Positions 6,465-21,592 of a stretch of DNA of 22,746 nucleotides are shown here, one piece after another. Every line of letters begins with the position of its first letter. Positions within the stretch are counted from its first letter, which is position 1. The stretch covers positions 23,640-46,385 of IMG/VR virus record IMGVR_UViG_3300030102_002336; one strand, given 5' to 3'. Below the pieces are notes generated by a model, which saw only the letters and a list, made by a program, of their open reading frames with translations, was not told the DNA's origin and did not search any database. This stretch comes from a virus. The position numbers were made by a program, and so were the translations under genes.

Positions 6465-6554
6465 TTAGGTAGTGACATAGTAATTACCCAACCCTAAACG
6501 CTTAATTGCGTCTAAGGAAAGTATAATGTAATTTTCTGTTCTGTTACACCTCAT
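6465..6554 (-). CDS. Possible 29-residue mini-protein between lysozyme and terminase
   Basis: An ATG at 6554, inside the end of the endolysin gene, opens a 29-residue frame: MRCNRTENYI, then ILSLDAIKRLGLGNYYVTT. It fills most of the otherwise empty 100-base gap before the terminase. In favour: the overlap with the upstream stop is like that of other genes here, and the product looks like a plausible amphipathic helix. Against: very short, no strong ribosome binding site beyond the Gly/Glu codons of the endolysin end, and no family recognised. Treat as tentative. Confidence 0.3.
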   Translation of the reverse strand: MRCNRTENYIILSLDAIKRLGLGNYYVTT

Positions 6555-6990
6555 GCCAGTCTGGATTATTTTCAAATAACATTGACTCAGCTAATCTTCT
6601 TCTTTCTAATCCCTCTAAAACTTTGTTACCAGCTTTATTCCACCTACGCATTTGCGCTGGAACCTCATCAAGTTTGTTTTCATTTAAAACTTTTAGCATG
6701 GTTGAATTGTTAAGATTTGTTGGGCCTAAATTGTAGGTCCAGGCTACAAGGGCATCAAACTGGTTTTGTGTAAGAGGCACTTTTACAGCATCGTTTACAT
6801 AACCACCATATTCCTCAAGCTCCTCTTCTAGCCAAGCGTCTGCTTGTTCTTGAGTGCAAGTATCACCAGCTTTAACACCTTTAGTTCGGCCGTACGCTAT
6901 TGTTAAAACATCTACGGCATCGTAGTAAGCCTCTAGCTTACACCCTTCAAACTTTTTAATTAAGGATTTACCTTCTTCTGATATATTCAT
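6544..6990 (-). CDS. Endolysin, T4-lysozyme-type muramidase (GH24)
   Basis: A 148-residue single-domain lysozyme that cleaves the N-acetylmuramic acid to N-acetylglucosamine bond of peptidoglycan at the end of infection. The catalytic triad matches T4 lysozyme in spacing: E15 (KKFEGCKLEAYYD), D24 and T30 (T4: E11, D20, T26). Other family blocks are AYGRTKGVKAGDTCTQEQAD (33-52), LTQNQFDALVAWTYNLG (73-89) and GLERRRLAESMLF (about 127-139). There is no signal peptide or signal-anchor segment, so it needs a holin to reach the wall. It starts in an ATGA overlap with the upstream lipoprotein gene. Together with the two upstream genes it makes a lysis cassette. Only the small ORF at 6465-6554 separates it from the terminase. 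Confidence 0.95.
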   Translation of the reverse strand: MNISEEGKSLIKKFEGCKLEAYYDAVDVLTIAYGRTKGVKAGDTCTQEQADAWLEEELEEYGGYVNDAVKVPLTQNQFDALVAWTYNLGPTNLNNSTMLKVLNENKLDEVPAQMRRWNKAGNKVLEGLERRRLAESMLFENNPDWHEV

Positions 6991-7373
6991 TCTTTTTCCT
7001 CCGTTGTTGTAATTTTTTTATAATAAACCACAACTTGTTTTAATTCATTAATGTATCTTTTTAACTCCTGCATGTTATAAGCCATTAATTCATAATCTGG
7101 TACAGACATCGCAAAAAACACTACCTGGCCTTGATCCTTTTCGACTCTAGCTAAAAATTCATCAATATTTTTTTCAGAAACTACATACCAGTAAGGATCT
7201 TTTAGATCTATTTCTCTTGGCATAATTGGCTGTATAAAAGTTCTTTCTATTGGTTTAGAAATTACTTGTACTTGTTGTTTGCTAGGGAGCAGACTGCAAC
7301 TGCAAACCATCGTCAAGGCTATCAATGTTACGACTGTCCTCTTCGATGCTATTGAAAACTTCTTTAGTTCCAT
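6987..7373 (-). CDS. Lipoprotein, candidate outer-membrane spanin subunit
   Basis: A 128-residue protein. Its N-terminus has a basic stretch (residues 1-12), a hydrophobic core (13-23) and a lipobox VCSC with the acylated Cys at 26. The mature part has PYWYVVSEKNIDEFLARV and FFAMSVPDYELMAYNMQELK, then a helix rich in Lys/Tyr. A lipoprotein start lying within an inner-membrane coiled-coil gene, directly upstream of an endolysin, is the Rz/Rz1 arrangement: the start lies 92 bases inside the preceding gene in another frame. Classical Rz1 is shorter and Pro-rich, so the spanin role is inferred from layout. I recall relatives in marine phages only as unknown lipoproteins. Confidence 0.7.
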   Translation of the reverse strand: MELKKFSIASKRTVVTLIALTMVCSCSLLPSKQQVQVISKPIERTFIQPIMPREIDLKDPYWYVVSEKNIDEFLARVEKDQGQVVFFAMSVPDYELMAYNMQELKRYINELKQVVVYYKKITTTEEKE

Positions 7374-7674
7374 TATTTACTCTCGGTTCTATTAAGCCTG
7401 GCTTAGCCGCGGCTAGTTTTGTTAAATCGTGTCTTTTAAAAATATCTAAATACCTATTCATTTCTGCTTGTATTTCTTGATTTTTATTTTGCAGATTAAG
7501 CAACCCTTGCGATTGCACGGCAAAATCGTTTTGCATGGTTTCTATTGTTGCAATTTGCTCTTGATTTCTAATTTCGAAGGCTTGATTTAATTGTGACAAA
7601 CGCGAGTTTTCATTCCACAAAAAAAATATTATCAAGCACATCACACCAATAATACCTAGAAACACTTTGCTCAT
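7282..7674 (-). CDS. Membrane-anchored coiled-coil protein, candidate inner-membrane spanin (Rz-like)
   Basis: A 130-residue type II membrane protein. Residues 3-20 (KVFLGIIGVMCLIIFFLW) are one transmembrane helix with a short cytoplasmic end. Residues about 22-85 are a Gln/Asn/Glu-rich coiled coil that would lie in the periplasm. The tail contains HDLTKLAAAKPGLIEPRVNN, a block I associate with proteins widespread in marine T4-like and other phages. The last 30 codons overlap the lipoprotein gene in another frame, as in the lambda Rz/Rz1 pair. Inner- and outer-membrane spanin partners fuse the membranes after the endolysin has worked. The start overlaps the stop of the 57-codon lipoprotein gene upstream by ATGA. 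Confidence 0.75.
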   Translation of the reverse strand: MSKVFLGIIGVMCLIIFFLWNENSRLSQLNQAFEIRNQEQIATIETMQNDFAVQSQGLLNLQNKNQEIQAEMNRYLDIFKRHDLTKLAAAKPGLIEPRVNNGTKEVFNSIEEDSRNIDSLDDGLQLQSAP

Positions 7675-7844
7675 ACTTCAAAAGTACCCATACACTGTGT
7701 CCAAAGATCTGTGTCTATTAGATCTTTGCAAATTTCGTATCGAGCTCGCCACTGTGCTGGATCATAAGAATCCGACCATTTTTTTTCTGGTTTTGTCGAT
7801 AGTGCACAAGACGACATAATTAAACAAACTAATAAAAAACGCAT
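7671..7844 (-). CDS. Small lipoprotein, 57 residues
   Basis: Starts MRFLLVCLIMSSCALSTK: one Arg, a hydrophobic stretch and a lipobox MSSC with the lipidated Cys at 13, so only about 45 residues remain after processing. The mature part contains WSDSYDPAQWRARYEIC and two further cysteines (39 and 51) that could form a disulfide. The ATG shares a base with the previous stop (TAATG) and the stop overlaps the next start (ATGA), which strongly supports translation. It comes just ahead of the spanin-like pair, so a second outer-membrane lysis partner is possible. Superinfection exclusion lipoproteins are also this size. Function unknown. Confidence 0.75.
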   Translation of the reverse strand: MRFLLVCLIMSSCALSTKPEKKWSDSYDPAQWRARYEICKDLIDTDLWTQCMGTFEV

Positions 7845-8203
7845 TATCCGCTCAGTGGGTTACTGTCTTTTTTATCTAATTTTGTTTCTAATTTTTGTAA
7901 ATCCTCATCCAAACTTAATAAATCTGCTTTGATTGTTGCTATGTCTGTTTTAATTTCTGTAAGATCCGGAACCTCGATATTATCAATTTCTTTTTCTAAA
8001 AATTGCACAGATGTTTCTATAGACGCGAATCTCTCTTCTATAATTTGTACGTTATCCTCTGCCTCGCTAATACCGCCTATTTTAGACTCAAGGTTTTCTA
8101 ATCTATTAACGTATTCAGCACCCGTGTAGCCAAACCCGGCTAACGTGCCTACGATTCCGACAAGGGCAATTATTTGTGTAGTTTTGCTTTGAAACCAATC
8201 CAT
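7844..8203 (-). CDS. Membrane-anchored coiled-coil protein
   Basis: A 119-residue protein from the ATG at 8203, chosen over an upstream TTG (8215) because GGAGGT lies five bases before it. MDWFQSK is followed by a transmembrane helix (about 9-28, IIALVGIVGTLAGFGYTGAE) and then a long coiled coil (about 32-113) rich in Glu, Ile, Asp and Leu with heptad spacing. The C-terminus is DKKDSNPLSG. The layout (short N-terminus, one membrane helix, long heptad region) resembles i-spanins and Rz-like proteins, making it a second such candidate besides 7282-7674. It forms a TAATG junction with the small lipoprotein gene. No enzyme motif is seen. Confidence 0.8.
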   Translation of the reverse strand: MDWFQSKTTQIIALVGIVGTLAGFGYTGAEYVNRLENLESKIGGISEAEDNVQIIEERFASIETSVQFLEKEIDNIEVPDLTEIKTDIATIKADLLSLDEDLQKLETKLDKKDSNPLSG

Positions 8204-8205
8204 TT

Positions 8206-10461
8206 TTACCTCCAAAGGTTAGGTTGGTCCTCAATCATCTGGCCCAAACCTTTTAAATTTTCATTAACCAAGCCAAAAAAAGCCTCGTTATTGTCATCTA
8301 GTGTAGCAGAAGTATAAATATTTGCACTAATATACCAATCTGTGTTGTCGACCATGGTGGTTTCTTGATATGTTGAAAAACCAGGGACATATCCAATAAG
8401 AGCCACTAATGTGGTTTCGTCGCCATATTCACCTGTTTCCTGTTGTTCTTGTTCTATTTCTTCTTGTTGCGCCTCAATGTTAGCCGCAATTATTTGATCT
8501 GCTATTTCGTCTGCCTCTGAGGCCGTCATAACCCCGGATGAGGCTGTATCAATTTGTCCTTGAACGTTAGAGACCTGTACGTCTGCGATAGCTACAGATG
8601 CCTGGTTGTCAAAAGTAGGCAACGGCGTGATTGAAACACTCATACCGCCAGATCCTTCAAGATTGTCTGACATGGACAAAACTTGGTTTGTTTGTTGTGT
8701 TGCGCTGGCAAATTGATCTGAAACACTTGGACTGCTTGTCGTACTGATTCCACCGCTAGAGCTTGTAGCACCGCTAGTATTTATGCTTGATGTAGAGTTA
8801 GCGTTTGTATTATTAACAGAGGATCCGCCAGAGGTTTGTGAATAACTATTTGCCGCTGTTTTTATGCCAGCTTTTATGACATTTAAAGCAGTCGCCATAA
8901 GTTTATTTTTTCCTGTTGGCGAATCGCCTTCTACTGCAACAAACTCTTCTTCAACTTCTTCTAGTATTTCTTCGCGTGTTTCTTCTTCTCTTTCGGCTAA
9001 TCTTTCTTCTTCCATCATTTCTTGCATTTCTTCTATTTCTTCAAACACTTCTTCCACTGCCTCTTCTTCAAATATTTCTTCTATGAATTCCTCTTCTGGA
9101 TCTTCCAGGTCTGCTAATCTCTCTTCGTGTCGATCTTCTCTATGTTCGTTAGTTTCTTCTTCAAACCACTCTTCTAATTCTGCAACGTTATTAAATTCAA
9201 TAAATGTGTTTGGTTCACTATAGTCCTCTACTAAAAATGTTTCTTGAAACACAAACTCATCTAATAATATTTCATCTTGTCGGTGCAAAGGCTCATCGTG
9301 TCTAGGTCCAAAATCATCTAAAAAAGGTAAAGGATCTGGCTCAAAAAATATTGTAAATTCTTCTGTGCTAGGGCCGTCAAAAAACTCATTAGGATCTTCA
9401 AAAAAATCATCAAAATGTAAAAAAATTTCTTCTTCAAATATTTCAATAACTGTGAATTGTTCTTCAAAATTATGATGATCGTGATGTGGCTCATCTATAA
9501 AAGATCCTGTTGCAAATTGATCTTGTTCATCTACAAAACCATAATTTACATTGCTATCGTCAAAAAAAGCCACAGATTCTTGTTGTCTGTAACCAGGACA
9601 AAAAGGTGCATATTGTGGATCTTCTCTACATTGTTGATCGTCATAAGCGTCCCAATAACCAGGACAAGACTCACTATAAAGATCAGTGATATTACATTGT
9701 TGAGTTAAATAAGCGTCTGCATAACCAGTACAACTGGTGTCATTTAAAGGATTGCTACAGTCTATGGCATTGCCACTACCTAATCCATAAAGAGAGCCAC
9801 CATTCTCAAGTGTGGTATTTATGGCCGTGCTGTTCCAATTTGTGTTTACGCAAGTAGATGAGTTGGTTGTTCCTGTATTACACTCATCGTGATAATAATA
9901 GGTGTAAGAATTGTTTTTGTTAGCTCCAACTTCTCCTATTAAAACATCGTGATTGATTATATCTAGTTCCCTATAACGTATATCAAAAGTATTATTGGGC
10001 CATAGAATTACTTCAAAACTGTTATCCGTTCCTGCTCGATTATACTCCCTAAGACGATACCATCCAAAGACCATCTTTGAACTATCGCCCCAAGACTTCA
10101 TCCTAGAGTTGTTATCTCTTATTAAGTCTGTCCAAAAAGGATATAAGGTGTAGGTATGCTGACCGTTAATAGGATCTGGAGTGTAATCAGAGCAATAGCT
10201 ACCACTAGAACCAAAATGTAGACATCCGTTCGTGGCCATTCGTGCTTTTGAAAAAGTAGAGCCGTAAAAAGTAAAATTAAAAGAAAGGTCAATTGCAGGA
10301 GATATGCCATCATCGGAAACCTCGTAGGCTAATTCACCCTGGAAATTATTAGCGTTGTCGTGTAAGTCATATAATCCTTGATTATTTTCGTATATGTATT
10401 GAGCATATACATTTAAGGATAACAGACTAACTATTGCGTAGCATAAAATTCTTGCTTGCAT
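8206..10461 (-). CDS. Secreted NIDO-like, Cys-repeat and Glu-rich protein
   Basis: A 751-residue exported protein. Signal peptide 1-20 (cleavage after VYA). About 55-190 resemble a nidogen-like (NIDO) domain: FNFTFYGSTF, ATNGCLHFG, LYPFWTDL, then beta-rich segments ending YTYYYHDEC. Residues 235-290 hold a 22-residue cysteine repeat, CTGYADAYLTQQC, CPGYWDAYDDQQC and CPGYRQQ. Residues 330-515 are extremely Glu/Asp/Phe-rich, with a coiled coil at about 425-510. A Ser/Asn/Thr linker (540-600) leads to a C-terminal domain with LVALIGYVPGFSTYQ and ending EDQPNLWR. The start overlaps the previous gene by 31 bases. NIDO domains occur in adhesion proteins, so binding to a surface or to another exported phage protein is plausible. 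It may sit in the virion or in the host envelope. Domain assignment is by eye. Confidence 0.8.
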   Translation of the reverse strand: MQARILCYAIVSLLSLNVYAQYIYENNQGLYDLHDNANNFQGELAYEVSDDGISPAIDLSFNFTFYGSTFSKARMATNGCLHFGSSGSYCSDYTPDPINGQHTYTLYPFWTDLIRDNNSRMKSWGDSSKMVFGWYRLREYNRAGTDNSFEVILWPNNTFDIRYRELDIINHDVLIGEVGANKNNSYTYYYHDECNTGTTNSSTCVNTNWNSTAINTTLENGGSLYGLGSGNAIDCSNPLNDTSCTGYADAYLTQQCNITDLYSESCPGYWDAYDDQQCREDPQYAPFCPGYRQQESVAFFDDSNVNYGFVDEQDQFATGSFIDEPHHDHHNFEEQFTVIEIFEEEIFLHFDDFFEDPNEFFDGPSTEEFTIFFEPDPLPFLDDFGPRHDEPLHRQDEILLDEFVFQETFLVEDYSEPNTFIEFNNVAELEEWFEEETNEHREDRHEERLADLEDPEEEFIEEIFEEEAVEEVFEEIEEMQEMMEEERLAEREEETREEILEEVEEEFVAVEGDSPTGKNKLMATALNVIKAGIKTAANSYSQTSGGSSVNNTNANSTSSINTSGATSSSGGISTTSSPSVSDQFASATQQTNQVLSMSDNLEGSGGMSVSITPLPTFDNQASVAIADVQVSNVQGQIDTASSGVMTASEADEIADQIIAANIEAQQEEIEQEQQETGEYGDETTLVALIGYVPGFSTYQETTMVDNTDWYISANIYTSATLDDNNEAFFGLVNENLKGLGQMIEDQPNLWR

Positions 10462-11555
10462 TGTCTATCCGATTTAGTTTTTCTTGTATAAGTTTTTTTC
10501 ACTAAGCCAACAACGTCCTTATTGATACCAGACCTTTTGGGGTTTATTTCTTTTGTGCATTGTTTTATAAACTCTTTTTCTTTTTCTTTTGCATCTGGTC
10601 TTTTAGATTGATTGTTGGCCCACTCTGCTTTTGCCTCTTTGCCAATTTTACCTTGATATGGACAAGGAGTTCCTGCCATTTCCATGGCTTTGAAAACCCT
10701 TTCATCTTGACAAAGTAGGGCCACACTAGCAACTTTCATCCCCATATCGTATAGATATTTTGAAAGTTTTAACCTTTCACAATTTTGGTCAACGATTGTT
10801 TTTCCTCCAGATAAACCAAACACTTGGCCCTGGAAAGCTCCACTAACTCCTGTAGTACACAAGTCTTGGCTATAACTCATAATGCTCGGTGCTATTGCAG
10901 ATGCAGGCGGGGCCTCTGATTTTATATTTTGATTAATGGTTTGAGTTGAGTTTGTTTCGTTAATATTCCTATTTGTGTTATTGCTCGTCGTATTATTTTC
11001 ATTAACGTTTTTATTATTGGTCGTAACATTAGATTCAGACTCAGATTTATTTATGTTTGTATTTGTATTGTTACTGGTCGATGTTGACGTATTATTGTTA
11101 TTAACATTCTGATTTACCGTTGAATTAACCGTAGACGTAGATGTGCTGGTATTAACGTTATTGTTATTGTTGGTATTGGTCGAGGTCGATGTTGCCGTCG
11201 AGGTGTTTACATTAGTGTTGCTGTTGGTATTGACGCTCGTATTATTATTAGTATTGACGCTCGTATTATTATTTGTGTTGGTGTTGTTGTTGGTATTCGT
11301 CGCCGTAGAGGTCGAAGTCGAGGTATTGGTGTTGTTGTTTGTGTTCGTGTTGGTGTTTGTCGTAGTCGTAGTGTTGGTCGTATCTAGGCTATTATTTTCA
11401 CAGTATTGAGTGCCGTTTGTGCAAGCTGTACCAGATTGTTGTGAAGATTGTGCGTTAGTGTTTATTGAAAACCCGACTAGAGCTGTAATTAAAAGCATTA
11501 CAGCTGACCATTTAATTAATTGGTCATGTTCATTTTGATCCTTCGTTTTCCTCAT
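10431..11555 (-). CDS. Secreted Asn/Thr-repeat protein with Cys-containing C-terminal domain
   Basis: A 374-residue protein from the ATG at 11555; a TTG at 11579 lengthens the frame but is a poor start. A basic N-terminus and hydrophobic stretch (residues 15-31) form a signal peptide, probably cleaved after TNA (35). Residues about 58-215 are almost only Asn, Thr and Ser with a little Val and Ala, a flexible stalk such as NTNTNNNTNTSTSTSTATN. Residues about 216-374 are a folded domain with SQDLCTTGVSGAFQGQVFGL, CERLKLSKYLYDMGMKV and AMEMAGTPCPYQG, six cysteines and a basic tail. I recall this C-terminal domain from marine phage contigs without a function. It overlaps the nuclease gene (26 bases) and the NIDO-like gene (31 bases). 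An exported stalked protein acting with the NIDO-like protein is the simplest reading. Confidence 0.75.
   Translation of the reverse strand: MRKTKDQNEHDQLIKWSAVMLLITALVGFSINTNAQSSQQSGTACTNGTQYCENNSLDTTNTTTTTNTNTNTNNNTNTSTSTSTATNTNNNTNTNNNTSVNTNNNTSVNTNSNTNVNTSTATSTSTNTNNNNNVNTSTSTSTVNSTVNQNVNNNNTSTSTSNNTNTNINKSESESNVTTNNKNVNENNTTSNNTNRNINETNSTQTINQNIKSEAPPASAIAPSIMSYSQDLCTTGVSGAFQGQVFGLSGGKTIVDQNCERLKLSKYLYDMGMKVASVALLCQDERVFKAMEMAGTPCPYQGKIGKEAKAEWANNQSKRPDAKEKEKEFIKQCTKEINPKRSGINKDVVGLVKKTYTRKTKSDRQCKQEFYATQ
11227..11274 (-). repeat. Tandem 24-bp repeat (two units) in the Asn/Thr stalk
   Basis: Two adjacent copies of a 24-base unit beginning GTATTGACGCTCG on the plus strand, differing at the last base, encode NTNNNTSV twice. 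They sit in a wider run of Asn and Thr codons (roughly 10910-11390). The unit is a multiple of three, so copy changes would keep the frame. This suggests the stalk length can vary by slippage or recombination. Confidence 0.8.
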
Positions 11556-11970
11556 TAGGTGTGTAAACTCCCAATTCAATCAATTTCTCTCTATTGATTA
11601 AATGCTCCTGCTCAACGTCATCTTTGCTTTGACCGTAATATCTAACTGCTAAATAATTTTCTATCATTGCAACGTTGATGTTAATATCATCTACCACTAC
11701 CTCACCTAAGATTCTACCATACTTTCCCTTTGAGTCTTTGAGTTTTGACCTCAAAACGATTGTTTTTCCGTTATTTATTGAATCTTCTAGGTATTTTGCG
11801 GCTAATTTGCCCCTTATTTTTTCATCTGGGTCTCTAGTTCGCGATTCCGGAGTATCTATACCGTAGAGTCTAACTCTGCATTTATGCAAAACAGAAAAGC
11901 CTAAATCAAGTATGCAATCGATTGTGTCACCGTCTACTACGCGAGTAACCTGGCAACTATATTCGTACAT
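11530..11970 (-). CDS. Staphylococcal-nuclease-like (SNc) endonuclease
   Basis: A 146-residue protein made of one thermonuclease (SNc) domain that hydrolyses DNA or RNA with Ca2+. All catalytic positions known for staphylococcal nuclease are present: D13 (VTRVVDGDTID; family D21), R34 (CRVRLYGIDTPES; R35), D39 and T40 (D40, T41), E42 (E43) and R86 (KGKYGRILGEV; R87). No signal peptide is seen, so it should act in the host cytoplasm unless released on lysis. It may degrade host DNA to provide nucleotides. The TAATG junction with the membrane gene upstream and the overlap with the exported-protein gene downstream place it in the late array, which is later than expected for host-DNA breakdown. 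Confidence 0.92.
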   Translation of the reverse strand: MYEYSCQVTRVVDGDTIDCILDLGFSVLHKCRVRLYGIDTPESRTRDPDEKIRGKLAAKYLEDSINNGKTIVLRSKLKDSKGKYGRILGEVVVDDININVAMIENYLAVRYYGQSKDDVEQEHLINREKLIELGVYTPNEENEGSK

Positions 11971-12347
11971 TAATCCTCGCCTTTAAATCCTTTAGATGCG
12001 TTTGAGGTGCCAGCATATAAACCAAACCAAGCGGCTCCTGCTCCGACTATTATTGATATTAGTCCAGATTGCTCTAGGCTGGGATCCTGTAAATCCATAA
12101 ACCACATGGTTGAATAATAAAGTAAAAAAATGTAAACGCTTAAAAAAACTCTGGGAAATATTCGCCATGAATCAACAGCTCTAGCTAAATGAATCCATTT
12201 TTGATGTGGATTAACTTTTGTGTCTGATTCTAGTTCCCTAATCTTTTCTTTTAGATCGTTTATTTCTTGAACCATGGACATAAATTTCGAGAGGTCAAGT
12301 TCGACCTCATTCCGACTGGTATCACCACTGAATCTATGATCTTCCAT
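11970..12347 (-). CDS. Two-helix membrane protein, holin candidate
   Basis: A 125-residue protein with a hydrophilic N-terminus containing a short coiled coil (about 20-42) and two membrane helices: about 66-86 (VFLSVYIFLLYYSTMWFMDL) and 97-115 (ISIIVGAGAAWFGLYAGTS). The end is charged. GAGAAWFGLYAGTSN resembles a motif I recall from holin-like 2-3 helix proteins in marine phages and gene transfer agents. The gene overlaps its neighbours by TAATG on both sides and lies in a run of small membrane genes that ends at the lysis cassette. Holin is the likeliest role, though three other small membrane proteins compete for it. Confidence 0.8.
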   Translation of the reverse strand: MEDHRFSGDTSRNEVELDLSKFMSMVQEINDLKEKIRELESDTKVNPHQKWIHLARAVDSWRIFPRVFLSVYIFLLYYSTMWFMDLQDPSLEQSGLISIIVGAGAAWFGLYAGTSNASKGFKGED

Positions 12348-12876: not shown

Positions 12877-13494
12877 TTATGCTTTGTAATAAGATGGTAA
12901 ACCAATCATAGGCCTACGGTCAAACCGATTAGCCTTTGCATTTTCACCAGACGCGTCATTGTAATGTAAAAAAACCTGGCCACAATGCTCGCCTTCAAAA
13001 GCATCACGCCAGTGTTCTAATTCACAACCTTGGTACATCAACATATCTCCTGGCTGTAACTTAATTTCTTTACCTTTTTTACCTTCTTCACCAGAGGGTT
13101 CTAAAAATATGGACCACTCGTCTCCTCCTAAGTGTAAGGTTGTAGATATTTCACACGAATATCTGTCTTTGTGTCTATGCAAAATGTCACCTTTTTTATA
13201 AATTCGTGCGTAAGAATAAGTTTCATAGAGTTTAATATCTGTTTCTTTTTCCATTACTGGTTTTACTTTTTGCAACAAAGTTTCCATAACTATGTCTGAG
13301 TAATGTGAGTAAGTTTCTGGCACTTGTGCATCATTCCAAATTCCATAGTATTCGGTAAATTGTGATATGTATTGAGTATCAAAAAGGTGTCTAGCTACAG
13401 CTCTTTTATTCAAAAAATATTGATAACAAAAATCTGCTAATTCATTTGATATAGCGCTCTTAATAACTTGATATTTATTCTTTTTAAAACTCAT
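12877..13494 (-). CDS. 2OG-Fe(II)-dependent oxygenase-like protein 1
   Basis: A 205-residue protein starting at ATG 13494 in an ATGA overlap with the second oxygenase gene; a GTG at 13521 would lengthen it but has no advantage. The iron-binding facial triad is H108-x-D110 (HRHKDRYSCEISTTLHL) and H161 (ELEHWRDAFEG). The core beta strands read EWSIFLEP and KLQPGDMLMYQG. The usual Arg that binds 2-oxoglutarate ten residues after the distal His is not there; the corresponding strand reads CGQVFLHYN, and R163 may serve, so the cosubstrate site is atypical. Enzymes of this fold hydroxylate proteins or nucleic-acid bases. Two in tandem next to adhesins suggests tail-fibre modification, which is inference. 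Confidence 0.8.
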   Translation of the reverse strand: MSFKKNKYQVIKSAISNELADFCYQYFLNKRAVARHLFDTQYISQFTEYYGIWNDAQVPETYSHYSDIVMETLLQKVKPVMEKETDIKLYETYSYARIYKKGDILHRHKDRYSCEISTTLHLGGDEWSIFLEPSGEEGKKGKEIKLQPGDMLMYQGCELEHWRDAFEGEHCGQVFLHYNDASGENAKANRFDRRPMIGLPSYYKA

Positions 13495-14111
13495 CTGAAT
13501 GGGTGTCCCAAATTCCAACACACTAAGGAGTGCCGTATTCCTTTAGTTACAGGTGTAACTCTATGCCAAACAAAAGAAGGAAAAACTATTACACTTCCTT
13601 TTGCTCTTATTTCTTCACATACTCTTGGTTGTGAGCCTTTTTCAGTGTCTCTAAAATCAAATTCAAGATCACCGCCTTCATATTCGCTTGGATCAGATAA
13701 AGAAATGGTCATGCTAAGTTTTCTTTGTTTACCATGTATGTTTATGTTATCTGGATTATTATATGGTTCTTCGTGTGAATCACAGTGCCAATCATAAAAT
13801 TGTCCTTTTTTATATTCTGTAAATTGACAAGCCTCAGACCAATCCCATTCAAAATTCCAACCTGCATTTGCATTAGCTTGATTAATATAAGGCTGTATTT
13901 CTTTATATATCCATCTATCTGACATCCAAACAATATCCGATTTTCTTTTTTTTTGAATATTTTTTAATTCCTCTTCTGTAATTTTGTCTTTATCAGCACT
14001 TCCTGTAAGAGCTACAGTTTTGTTTTCTTGCTGGCCATAACGAATTATATCGTCACAAATTCTTTTGGGAATAACGGATTTGAAGTACCAGTAATACCAT
14101 TTTAAATTCAT
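13491..14111 (-). CDS. 2OG-Fe(II) oxygenase 2, PKHD/prolyl-hydroxylase type
   Basis: A 206-residue single-domain dioxygenase with a complete active site: H109-x-D111 (FYDWHCDSHEEPY), the strand LSMTISLSDPSEYEGGDLEF, distal H183 (FPSFVWHRVTPV) and R193 (GIRHSLVCWN), exactly ten residues on, which binds 2-oxoglutarate. This is the P4Hc/PKHD pattern of prolyl hydroxylases such as those in cyanophages. The reaction couples 2-oxoglutarate decarboxylation to hydroxylation of a substrate, probably protein. It comes directly after the two Gly-rich adhesin genes, whose products contain many Gly-Pro steps. No signal peptide, so it acts in the cytoplasm during assembly. Confidence 0.93.
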   Translation of the reverse strand: MNLKWYYWYFKSVIPKRICDDIIRYGQQENKTVALTGSADKDKITEEELKNIQKKRKSDIVWMSDRWIYKEIQPYINQANANAGWNFEWDWSEACQFTEYKKGQFYDWHCDSHEEPYNNPDNINIHGKQRKLSMTISLSDPSEYEGGDLEFDFRDTEKGSQPRVCEEIRAKGSVIVFPSFVWHRVTPVTKGIRHSLVCWNLGHPFR

Positions 14112-14145: not shown

Positions 14146-15156
14146 TTAAACCCAATCATCTTCTACCAGTTGCCTAAATACTGTTCTAAGATCCCAACAA
14201 CTTGATGCAACGGTAACATTTACTGCGGGTTGTTTTGTAATTACTACTCCAGAACCTCCTGCTGTTGTAGATGGGGTTGATGCAATAACTGGACTTCCAG
14301 CACCACCACCGCCAACTGTTATTGTATAGGGTGTGCTACCTGTTACTGTTAAAACTGATTCAGCAGATGCTCCTCCTCCAGAACTTTCACCAGGTACAGA
14401 GCAACGATATCCACCTGCTCCTCCTCCACCACCAAAGTTTTGAAAATTTATAGAATCTTCAGCATAGCCACCGCCTCCACCACCTGTGTTAGCAGAGCCA
14501 GATGTTGACATTGTTCCAGGTGTACCACCTTGAGTGCTACCACCTGTACCACCGCCACCAGAACCACCAGAACCAGTTGTTTGGACACCAAAATAGAATG
14601 ATCCTCCACCACCTCCACCACCTCTTGTTACGGGTGATCCAGTGATAGATGATGCAACTCCAGCACCTCCATCTCCACTTTTAAGTGATGATGGTGGTCC
14701 TTGATGCGGTTGACCTACAGCACCAGCACCTCCGCCACCACCAGCCATATCGGCACCAACATTTGCTGCTCTAGCACCAGCACCACCATCATGTCCTTGT
14801 CCTGGTGTTCCTGTTCCTAATGGGAAGAAAGTAGTTCCACCTCCGCCACCAGATCCTCCATTGATACCTGGATATGGATAGGGTGAGTAAGATGCACCAG
14901 TACCACCTCCACCTCCTCCTTCTGAGGTCACTGTAGTAATAGGTGTTCCTGCTATAGAAGAATCAGAACCTTTGGCTCCTACATGATTTGATCCAGCATT
15001 AGAACCACCGCCGCCGCCTCCACCTGCAATAATCAAATATTGAAGTTGTGTTGTGTATTGTTCTGTGGTTAATGTTCCGCTTGAGTTAAATGTACTAATA
15101 ACTTGACTTTGTGATATAGAAGTTACTGCTTGTGCTGATCCTATAAGTCTTGGCAT
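14146..15156 (-). CDS. Glycine-rich tail-tip adhesin 2
   Basis: A 336-residue protein. N-terminus about 1-45 (STFNSSGTLTTEQYTTQ) looks like an attachment domain. About 45-300 is a Gly-rich body with runs of five to seven Gly (GGGGGGGSNAG) alternating with loops containing Pro, Ser and Tyr. The last 30 residues form a small closing motif, CWDLRTVFRQLVEDDWV. Gly-rich sandwiches of polyglycine-II helices make up the receptor-binding tips of some T-even phage adhesins (gp38 of S16), so host recognition is likely. The next gene upstream (15158-16129) is a clear paralogue with the same start and end motifs, one base apart. Low complexity blocks precise domain limits. Confidence 0.85.
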   Translation of the reverse strand: MPRLIGSAQAVTSISQSQVISTFNSSGTLTTEQYTTQLQYLIIAGGGGGGGSNAGSNHVGAKGSDSSIAGTPITTVTSEGGGGGGTGASYSPYPYPGINGGSGGGGGTTFFPLGTGTPGQGHDGGAGARAANVGADMAGGGGGAGAVGQPHQGPPSSLKSGDGGAGVASSITGSPVTRGGGGGGGSFYFGVQTTGSGGSGGGGTGGSTQGGTPGTMSTSGSANTGGGGGGYAEDSINFQNFGGGGGAGGYRCSVPGESSGGGASAESVLTVTGSTPYTITVGGGGAGSPVIASTPSTTAGGSGVVITKQPAVNVTVASSCWDLRTVFRQLVEDDWV

Positions 15157-15157
15157 A

Positions 15158-16129
15158 TTACACCCATGTTCCTGCTGTTACACTTTCATAAACTGCTTCT
15201 AAATTCCAAACTCCAGATGCAGATGTTATAACTGGTTCTTTTACAATAACAACACCAGAGCCACCATTACCACCTAAACCTTGATTACCCGATCCACCAC
15301 CACCACCACCGCCTGTGTTGGCTGAACCAGCTATTCCAGATGAGCCTGGTCCTGGATTACCAGGCTGTGGATTTCCATTACCTCCACCACCTGCTCCTCC
15401 TTGTCCTTGAATATTTCCAGGTCTTGTAAGATACATACCACCTCCACCACCGCCACCTCTAGTTACAGATGAGCCTGTGATTGAAGATGCGATTCCATCC
15501 CCACCGTCGTGTTGATACGGGCCGCTTGGTGGTGTTGAGGGAGTGTACCCCTGTCCTGTTTCTGAGGCACCACCACCTCCGCCAGAGCCGTAAGTTACAA
15601 GTGGAGAAAGTTCTCCTGCTAAACCGCCTGCAAAACCTTGATTGGCTGTGCCCGAGCCTTGATTGCCACCTAAAAAGCCACCGCCACCCGATCCGCCAGG
15701 ATCACCAGCGCCAGGGGGATTACTGTTTTGTACCGCAGAGGATCCGCCCACTCCGCCGCCAGCAGAGGTAACGCCTGCTACAGACGAATCATTGCCTGGA
15801 GAGCCTTTGGTTGCCTCGGCGGCACCTTTAGTGCCACCTGCTCCCACTACTACTGGGTAAGGTGAATTTCCAGATACGGGAGCTGTAGTTTCAGCACTAG
15901 CACCTCCACCAGAATTTTCTCCTGGTACTGATGAACGATAACCTCCAGCACCTCCACCACCACCAATACCACCTCCACCAGCACCTCCACCAGCTACAAC
16001 TACGAATTGAATTGCTTGAGTTTTTGGTTGTGTTGTTAGTGTTCCACTAGAGTTAAATGTAGTTATTTGTTCATTTTGTTTTGAAACTGGATTATCTACG
16101 CCAATAATACCGCCATTTATATCAGCCAT
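15158..16129 (-). CDS. Glycine-rich tail-tip adhesin 1
   Basis: A 323-residue paralogue of the next gene. The shared N-terminal motif is TTFNSSGTLTT, followed by QAIQFVVVAGGGAGGGG. The body has Gly runs and collagen-like Gly-Pro stretches (GNPQPGNPGPGSSG), and repeated blocks such as GGGGGAGGYRSSVPGENSGG and ASSITGSSVTRGGGGGG, both of which recur nearly unchanged in the neighbour. The end, WNLEAVYESVTAGTWV, parallels the neighbour's W-L-V-W pattern. It is likely a receptor-binding tail tip. The TAA of the preceding gene lies two bases upstream of the ATG. Two versions side by side could give a two-receptor host range or arise by recent duplication. Confidence 0.85.
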   Translation of the reverse strand: MADINGGIIGVDNPVSKQNEQITTFNSSGTLTTQPKTQAIQFVVVAGGGAGGGGIGGGGGAGGYRSSVPGENSGGGASAETTAPVSGNSPYPVVVGAGGTKGAAEATKGSPGNDSSVAGVTSAGGGVGGSSAVQNSNPPGAGDPGGSGGGGFLGGNQGSGTANQGFAGGLAGELSPLVTYGSGGGGGASETGQGYTPSTPPSGPYQHDGGDGIASSITGSSVTRGGGGGGGMYLTRPGNIQGQGGAGGGGNGNPQPGNPGPGSSGIAGSANTGGGGGGGSGNQGLGGNGGSGVVIVKEPVITSASGVWNLEAVYESVTAGTWV

Positions 16130-20743: not shown

Positions 20744-20780
20744 AGCATAAATTATATGCTTTAGTTTTAAATTTTGCTAA
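20744..20780 (-). promoter_or_regulatory. Candidate internal promoter with inverted repeat before the RelA-like gene
   Basis: Directly before the 20743 start lies AGCATA-AATTA-TATGCT, a perfect 6-bp inverted repeat with a 5-base loop (20744-20760). On the leftward strand it contains TATAAT (20756-20751), with TTAGCA (20780-20775) 18 bases upstream as a weak -35. Transcription would begin about at the ATG, giving a leaderless message, consistent with the missing ribosome binding site. Purely sequence-based. Confidence 0.35.
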
Positions 20781-21592
20781 TGCCTAACGTCGTATTTCTG
20801 ATCTTCCATATCGAGCAAGCCTTGAAACTTTCTGTTAAGGATCTTATGAACTTTGTGATAAGGAAAGTCCTCATAGCCTTTGTGTAAATTTTGCACCTGC
20901 TTAGCTATCCTTCTAGCGCCTAGGCCACGCGATTTACAAGCGTAGATCGTTTTTAAAACTTCCTGCTCCTCGGGTATGGGAACCAATTTAGTATGACGTT
21001 TGGCCCCGTGATCTTCGTATTCTTTTCTGTAACCAAAAGGAACATGGCCACCAATCGAATAACCTTTTTCGGCCCAGGCGATCTTGCCACCTGCTAATCT
21101 CGACTTAATCATGTCGCGCTCAAACTCTGCAAACTGAGCCAAGGTCGCGACCAAGTTACGGTTGTTAATCCTGGCCATATCTAGTTTGGCATCTAAACCT
21201 TTTGACTCTTGATCTCTAGGTAGCACCACCGGTGTATCGCCAAACATTTCGCAGAAATAAAGTGTGATCCCTGTCTCTTCTAGCATTGGAACCATGTTGA
21301 CCATTTCGGTAAACGACCTGGCCAACCTGTCTAGTTTGGTGGTTACTATCACATCATGCTTGTCCATGATGTCAGTTAGATCTCTGGATCCTGGTCGATC
21401 GACTAGATCCTTCATGCCACTAACGCCAGCGTCAATAAAGAATTTATCCACGGGCCTGTTAAACTTAGCCTGGACAAACTCCTCTATGATTCTTTTTTGC
21501 TCGTCCAGAGACGAGCCGTCTTTGACTTGTTGCTCCGAAGAAACTCGGACGTAACCGTAAATGTTATTAATTTGTTTGCGCGGTTGTATCAT
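20777..21592 (-). CDS. Serine recombinase (resolvase/invertase family)
   Basis: A 271-residue site-specific recombinase. The resolvase domain (about 10-165) has YVRVSSEQQ (14-22) with catalytic S18 and R16, FFIDAGVSGMKDLVDRPG (51-68), TTKLDRLARS (84-93) with active-site Arg residues, and ATLAQFAEFERDMIKSRLAG (149-168) leading into the dimer helix. After GHVPFGYR (182-189) comes a short DNA-binding recombinase-type region. It is longer than simple resolvases (about 185) but much shorter than large serine integrases (above 400). The likely function is DNA strand exchange at specific sites, for example inversion, dimer resolution or integration. The start overlaps the upstream stop by ATGA. Why a late-array phage carries it is not clear. 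Confidence 0.92.
   Translation of the reverse strand: MIQPRKQINNIYGYVRVSSEQQVKDGSSLDEQKRIIEEFVQAKFNRPVDKFFIDAGVSGMKDLVDRPGSRDLTDIMDKHDVIVTTKLDRLARSFTEMVNMVPMLEETGITLYFCEMFGDTPVVLPRDQESKGLDAKLDMARINNRNLVATLAQFAEFERDMIKSRLAGGKIAWAEKGYSIGGHVPFGYRKEYEDHGAKRHTKLVPIPEEQEVLKTIYACKSRGLGARRIAKQVQNLHKGYEDFPYHKVHKILNRKFQGLLDMEDQKYDVRH

Follow-up and report, generated by a model that had tools for sequence, protein, structure and literature searches.

Phages of SAR11 rank with the most abundant viruses of the sea, and how they open such small cells and leave them is poorly known. Pelagiphage genes for type VIII secretion (curli), which are exported envelope genes of SAR11 podoviruses and myoviruses, have been proposed to act in lysis control, aggregation or exclusion (PMC7029224, PMC9599517, PMC9004378). 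A second point of reference is the spanin pair Rz/Rz1 (phrog_739 and phrog_812), which combines an N-terminal anchor with a periplasmic coil and is located in the lysis cassette. We have analyzed a viral locus encoding three proteins, here termed A, B and C, of which C shares the topology and location of the spanins. Like the curli genes, whose debated roles are those that we consider here, the triad consists of exported envelope genes, but the two systems have no proteins in common. We found no description of the A-B-C triad in the literature. Our reading, to which we assign a probability of roughly 0.5, is that A-B-C is an envelope module that is expressed late, moves horizontally and acts in concert with lysis or release.

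The window, by which we mean the whole 22,746-nucleotide stretch of DNA analyzed, is the final 22.7 kb of a 46.4-kb virus record and has a GC content of 38.9%. The nearest relatives of its terminase are those of 023Pt_psg01 (62%) and of the SAR11 phages HTVC027P (60%) and HTVC023P (58%). A probable GroES co-chaperonin is encoded at 1372-1794, much where HTVC023P and HTVC027P each have a gene annotated as phage GroES. On the upstream side of the lysis region are a pair of neighboring 2OG-Fe(II) oxygenase-like genes and a tandem pair of Gly-rich paralogues (12877-14111 and 14146-16129), each pair being kept together in the loci of several relatives. At 20777-21592 we recognized by eye a serine recombinase/resolvase-like protein, which may bear on the ability of the phage to integrate.

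The genes of the region are on the minus strand. They are transcribed in the order holin candidate, SNase, A, B, C, lipoprotein, Rz, Rz1, GH24 endolysin, terminase and portal-like protein, and the first nine have the following features.

11970..12347, minus strand: membrane protein, a holin candidate by its hydrophobic segments only; matches phrog_10198 (function unknown), E = 2.6e-20
11530..11970, minus strand: SNase-type nuclease, the upstream neighbor of A; PF00565, E = 2e-13
10431..11579, minus strand: protein A, with a signal peptide, an Asn/Thr/Ser-rich stalk and a conserved four-cysteine C-terminal domain (residues about 235-335); 382 codons from the TTG start at 11579, or 374 from ATG at 11555
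8206..10461, minus strand: protein B, 751 codons, with a signal peptide, a NIDO-like beta-sandwich (residues about 20-200), Cys-rich repeats (about 235-290), a Glu-rich linker and a C-terminal segment
7844..8215, minus strand: protein C, 123 codons, with an N-terminal transmembrane segment, a coiled coil and a C-terminal NPL motif (SNPLSG end); start TTG at 8215 or ATG at 8203
7671..7844, minus strand: lipoprotein of 57 amino acids, 57 codons, lipobox MSSC
7282..7674, minus strand: Rz-like i-spanin, 130 codons; phrog_739, E = 6.8e-12
6987..7373, minus strand: Rz1-like o-spanin lipoprotein; phrog_812, E = 6.3e-11; lipobox VCSC read directly
6544..6990, minus strand: GH24 endolysin; PF00959, E = 1.9e-44, and phrog_7, E = 4.5e-55

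By their profile matches, the Rz gene (7282-7674), the Rz1 gene (6987-7373) and the GH24 endolysin are a textbook lysis cassette, in which the first two are a canonical two-component spanin, i.e., an ordinary lysis gene pair whose reading frames overlap by 92 nt. A preliminary description of this DNA had placed a row of five exported or membrane proteins at 7671-11555, with a nuclease gene on one side and lysis genes on the other. The five reading frames are all present on the minus strand, but the fifth, described there as a second anchored coiled coil, is the i-spanin gene, which lies outside that range except for four bases. Since this gene encodes the i-spanin (phrog_739), and the o-spanin and GH24 endolysin come next, the end of the block is itself a lysis gene and the block sits within the lysis cassette. 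The overlap of starts and stops, calculated from the coordinates, amounts to 31 nt for A and B, 1 nt for C and the lipoprotein, and 4 nt both for the lipoprotein and Rz and for Rz1 and the lysozyme; with TTG 8215 as the start of C, B and C overlap by 10 nt, and with ATG 8203 they do not overlap at all.

Do the five genes belong together? Among window-like contigs A, B and C keep a constant order, and the spanins, nuclease, holin candidate, lipoprotein and endolysin shift or are absent; the position of the SNase gene varies among relatives. Strict A-B-C order is found in more than 150 contigs, the loci being contigs that are partly redundant, with mechanical ORF calls. When IMG/VR loci were found by the NIDO domain alone, A was upstream in all 66 loci with room for it, and C was downstream in 58 of 62. 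We therefore rejected the five genes as a single unit, only A-B-C being constant. The expectation that relatives would preserve the block thus held for three genes in fixed order and association, and not for the other two. Conversely, the possibility that all five are only independent accessories fails for A-B-C, and largely describes the canonical spanin and the lipoprotein of the window-like family. The latter is nevertheless a genuine family by its alignment, with two cysteines and a conserved lipobox. Relatives have the lipoboxes LTAC, IGC and SSC, and the motif W(N/S)DxxDxxxWR...C...C is conserved in the family alignment as judged by eye; the seed family occurs only in window-like loci, where it is beside the triad.

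A and B have the character of exported proteins in most homologs. A signal-peptide-like N terminus was found by a hydropathy heuristic (not SignalP) in 156 of 179 A proteins and 161 of 179 B proteins, compared with 83 of the 1315 remaining ORFs in these loci with a length of 180 aa or more (6.3%). Such N termini are thus commoner in A and B than chance would give.

The triad is present in a number of isolates, comprising HTVC023P (gp45-46-48), HTVC033P (gp46-44), HTVC202P (gp24-26), Baldr (001/003/004), HTVC115P (gp54-52), the myovirus Mosig (00202-00200) and uvMED S28-C10 (Autographiviridae). The roseophages CRP-207 and CRP-810 have the triad with a different B. Queries with A gave matches in 11 of 50,697 phage records, and its relatives in IMG/VR come from, at least, more than 500 environmental phage contigs. 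Comparing S28-C10 with the window, A proteins are 42% identical (E = 7e-23) and C proteins match with E = 1.5e-5, while the large terminase gives E = 0.014. Because the triad is common to phages with unrelated terminases, these comparisons indicate that it has moved between lineages. HTVC027P, a cultured lytic phage, and 023Pt_psg01, both close to the window by terminase, lack A, and it follows that the triad is optional.

One role that might be considered for such proteins is as a component of the virion, A and B being surface decorations or fibers gained on passage through the envelope. The genes do lie in the late region with those for terminase and portal, and B resembles the sugar-binding heads of fibers. 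However, nearly all homologs of A and B have signal peptides, which speaks against assembly in the cytoplasm, and the presence of one triad in both podovirus-like and myovirus genomes fits a structural role poorly. Moreover, the triad of Mosig is located after a GTA-type holin and beside genes of nucleotide metabolism, away from those of the virion. We regard a virion component as very unlikely.

Protein A is a single family across the groups (hhalign probability 99-100). It matches phrog_20531, of unknown function, with E = 1.5e-15; this PHROG also takes in the A proteins of HTVC023P (2.8e-18) and CRP-207 (1.3e-8), and records neither a function nor the triad. The C-terminal domain can be aligned across phages, with its four cysteines conserved, and is predicted by AF2 to have a helical core (pLDDT about 90). 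Its fold gave no match in the PDB, and the domain matches uncharacterized viral proteins only; on these searches, no known structure or family accounts for A. The most distant match is in Achromobacter phage phiAxp-2, where ORF51 (L417:44598-45710, minus strand) is an A-like exported protein at 32 bits, so that the A family would reach past marine phages. ORF51 adjoins a second exported protein that is rich in Gly and Ser (ORF52). Manatee Spring phage ctXG6705 encodes an A-type domain (L160:5863-6363) that its annotation misses, since the record shows at this place short ORFs on the opposite strand and a 'transport protein tonB'. Cellular matches of A were discarded as evidence of the host; they occur in nine MAG contigs of mixed taxa that are probably mis-binned phage DNA.

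The stalk of A is of variable length, and includes a nucleotide tandem repeat at 11227-11280 in the window. Its Asn/Thr/Ser repeats might suggest an adhesive or aggregating fiber, in which the stalk polymerizes on the surface with B as a sticky head, so that infected cells or debris would stick together with new hosts, the 'sibling capture' that has been put forward for phage curli. Curli secretion genes are indeed present in other pelagiphages (PMC7029224, PMC9599517). Yet the stalk is nearly missing in some A proteins (HTVC115P), and a curli-bearing phage gave no clumping (PMC9004378). CsgG was found neither in the record containing the window nor in the genomes of eight isolates, Mosig among them, that carry the triad or are related, and a search of the window's own record for curlin repeats was also negative. 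Given the lack of CsgG in this record and the tested isolates, a curli system is unlikely to be the carrier, and a fiber of this kind seems to us distinctly improbable. Mosig (L154), without CsgG, has a relative HTVC008M that is reported to carry curli genes (PMC9599517) and gave no match to A. The triad and curli may be alternatives.

The N-terminal domain of B had been labeled NIDO-like from its sequence. The label has indirect support. The Pfam model PF06119 matched none of 34 B proteins at E <= 1, but an HMM of the phage domain finds NIDO proteins of three bacterial genomes with 18-31 bits over about 140 residues, that of a fourth genome being marginal (5.9 bits). Thus the domain aligns with bacterial NIDO members while lying below detection by the Pfam model. 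It differs from them in its fusion to Cys-rich repeats and a Glu-rich arm, and it was always within the triad in the phage loci examined. A sequence search of the PDB with the NIDO region found nothing, and a full-length AF2 model of B was discarded (pLDDT 37.5). The Cys-rich repeats following the domain (9590-9760 in the window, minus strand; CxGYxxAYxxQQC...) differ in copy number between relatives, with several additional copies in locus L081 at about 8700-9000.

By its N-terminal half, B belongs to one of two classes with no relation to each other: 113 loci have the NIDO-like form and 66 the carbohydrate-binding-like form, the latter being that of most SAR11 phages. In HTVC033P and S28-C10 the place of the NIDO domain is filled by a CBM_4_9-like domain of unrelated sequence, for which the Pfam match is weak (E = 0.009, below the cut-off). 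In roseophages and freshwater phages a third, shorter exported protein occupies the position of B. Judged by sequence, the B slot is exchangeable. We rejected a single B family, which depended on one C-terminal BLAST cluster held by weak bridges through one sequence, with a profile comparison probability of 6; B of HTVC115P was also rejected as an intermediate (E = 0.056, not significant).

An exchangeable exported binding protein invites an explanation in terms of receptor masking or superinfection exclusion. The beta-sandwich of B, with A, would cover glycans or receptors on the cell surface and debris; rivals could not then adsorb, and progeny would not be lost on dead cells. This would be consistent with a module that is exported, optional and transferable, and with the occurrence of at least two unrelated binding-type modules in B and the third exported protein; a role in exclusion has already been suggested for other exported genes of pelagiphages (PMC9599517, PMC7029224). 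Against this, the NIDO domain is the best-conserved part of B in the window-like group, with all the invariant columns at residue 308 or below, and such conservation counts against an arms race over receptors, in which fast divergence is expected. Furthermore, the triad has late lysis genes, and not early ones, as its neighbors, and a simple mask needs no anchored C. We consider masking or exclusion unlikely, while according it some weight.

Protein C has a hydrophobic N-terminal segment in all 103 window-like proteins, together with coiled-coil profile matches; its orientation in the membrane is assumed. All 103 window-like and all 50 pelagiphage-type loci have a transmembrane protein with an NPL motif no more than 3.5 kb from A. 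An NP(L/M) ending occurs in 238 of 6155 ORFs of similar size in those loci, most of these being C itself. Window and pelagiphage C proteins are related (hhalign probability 98.7, with controls comprising Rz, the holin candidate and a small transmembrane protein all below 15). In roseophages and freshwater phages an NPL-type motif is present in 26 of 50 loci, and the same protein has a KPL ending in the others inspected; C of the roseophages probably belongs to the same family (hhalign probability 51-74). CRP-207 gp73 (L162:3292-3873) and CRP-810 gp51 (L163:7162-7584) are annotated as lysozyme and have no Pfam match. They resemble C in their anchor, coiled coil and NPL end, and the label is likely to be a misannotation.

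We rejected C as a homolog of Rz (hhalign probability 10.8 against Rz; phrog_739, E = 0.044). Despite the common topology there is no detectable homology, C ends with its conserved NPL motif, and the partners that constantly accompany it are two proteins with signal peptides, where that of Rz is the o-spanin lipoprotein. Could C and the 57-amino-acid lipoprotein nevertheless be a second, unrelated two-component spanin pair, with A and B as passengers? C has i-spanin topology, a small lipoprotein with two cysteines and a lipobox is directly next to it, and their order is like that of i- and o-spanin genes (reviewed in PMC6139136). However, the lipoprotein is confined to window-like phages and C always accompanies A and B; C is unrelated to Rz, and a canonical pair is already present. 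We give a second spanin pair very little credence.

We return therefore to a late envelope module acting with lysis or release, and to its linkage with lysis genes. Within -3.0/+4.5 kb of A, a recognized lysis gene, as defined by a limited seed set, was present in 50 of 51 window-like, 19 of 31 pelagiphage-type and 26 of 26 roseophage and freshwater loci; in the remaining 12 of the 31 pelagiphage-type loci this limited set recognized none nearby. The endolysins belong to several unrelated families (GH24, M15, GH19 and amidase). After dereplication, endolysin or holin genes were near the triad in 23 of 34 loci; if the background is assumed to be 15-35%, the binomial p value lies between 6e-12 and 1e-4. 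The earlier suggestion of an envelope apparatus co-expressed with lysis genes accordingly fits A, B and C, which are exported or anchored, overlapping, ordered, and linked to lysis genes in unrelated phages, but it does not extend to all five proteins. The linkage does not prove function. With the canonical Rz/Rz1 already beside the triad, no missing lysis step calls for it, and this argues against a role in lysis. The lack of homology between C and Rz, and the absence of A from the lytic phage HTVC027P, count on the same side.

How might such a module work? Phages would exchange A-B-C as a unit and keep it beside their lysis genes, with late expression and Sec export of the products. A would be secreted and probably disulfide bonded. 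B would also be secreted, its long acidic arm presenting a beta-sandwich that binds sugar or matrix. C would be anchored in the inner membrane with its coiled coil extending into the periplasm, where the conserved C-terminal NPL tail could dock A or B. Together, the three proteins might link the inner membrane with the wall or the outer surface of the cell, and contribute to dismantling or opening the envelope during the action of holin and endolysin, on top of the ordinary spanins.

Taken further, and only tentatively since we judge the odds to be somewhat against the full proposal, A-B-C might be an unnamed, self-contained envelope machine composed of a secreted stalk protein, a glycan-binding arm that can be exchanged, and a coiled coil that sits in the inner membrane and docks by its NPL tail. 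Spanning the envelope, this machine would control the opening of, or binding at, the outer surface at lysis, and phages that are unrelated to each other and infect SAR11, Roseobacter or other aquatic bacteria would pass the cassette among themselves. Two features offer direct, testable handles, namely the NPL tail of C, which hardly varies, and the binding domain of B, which is swapped. The conservation of an exported three-gene module across unrelated lineages suggests that a common envelope step has escaped notice in cultured models.
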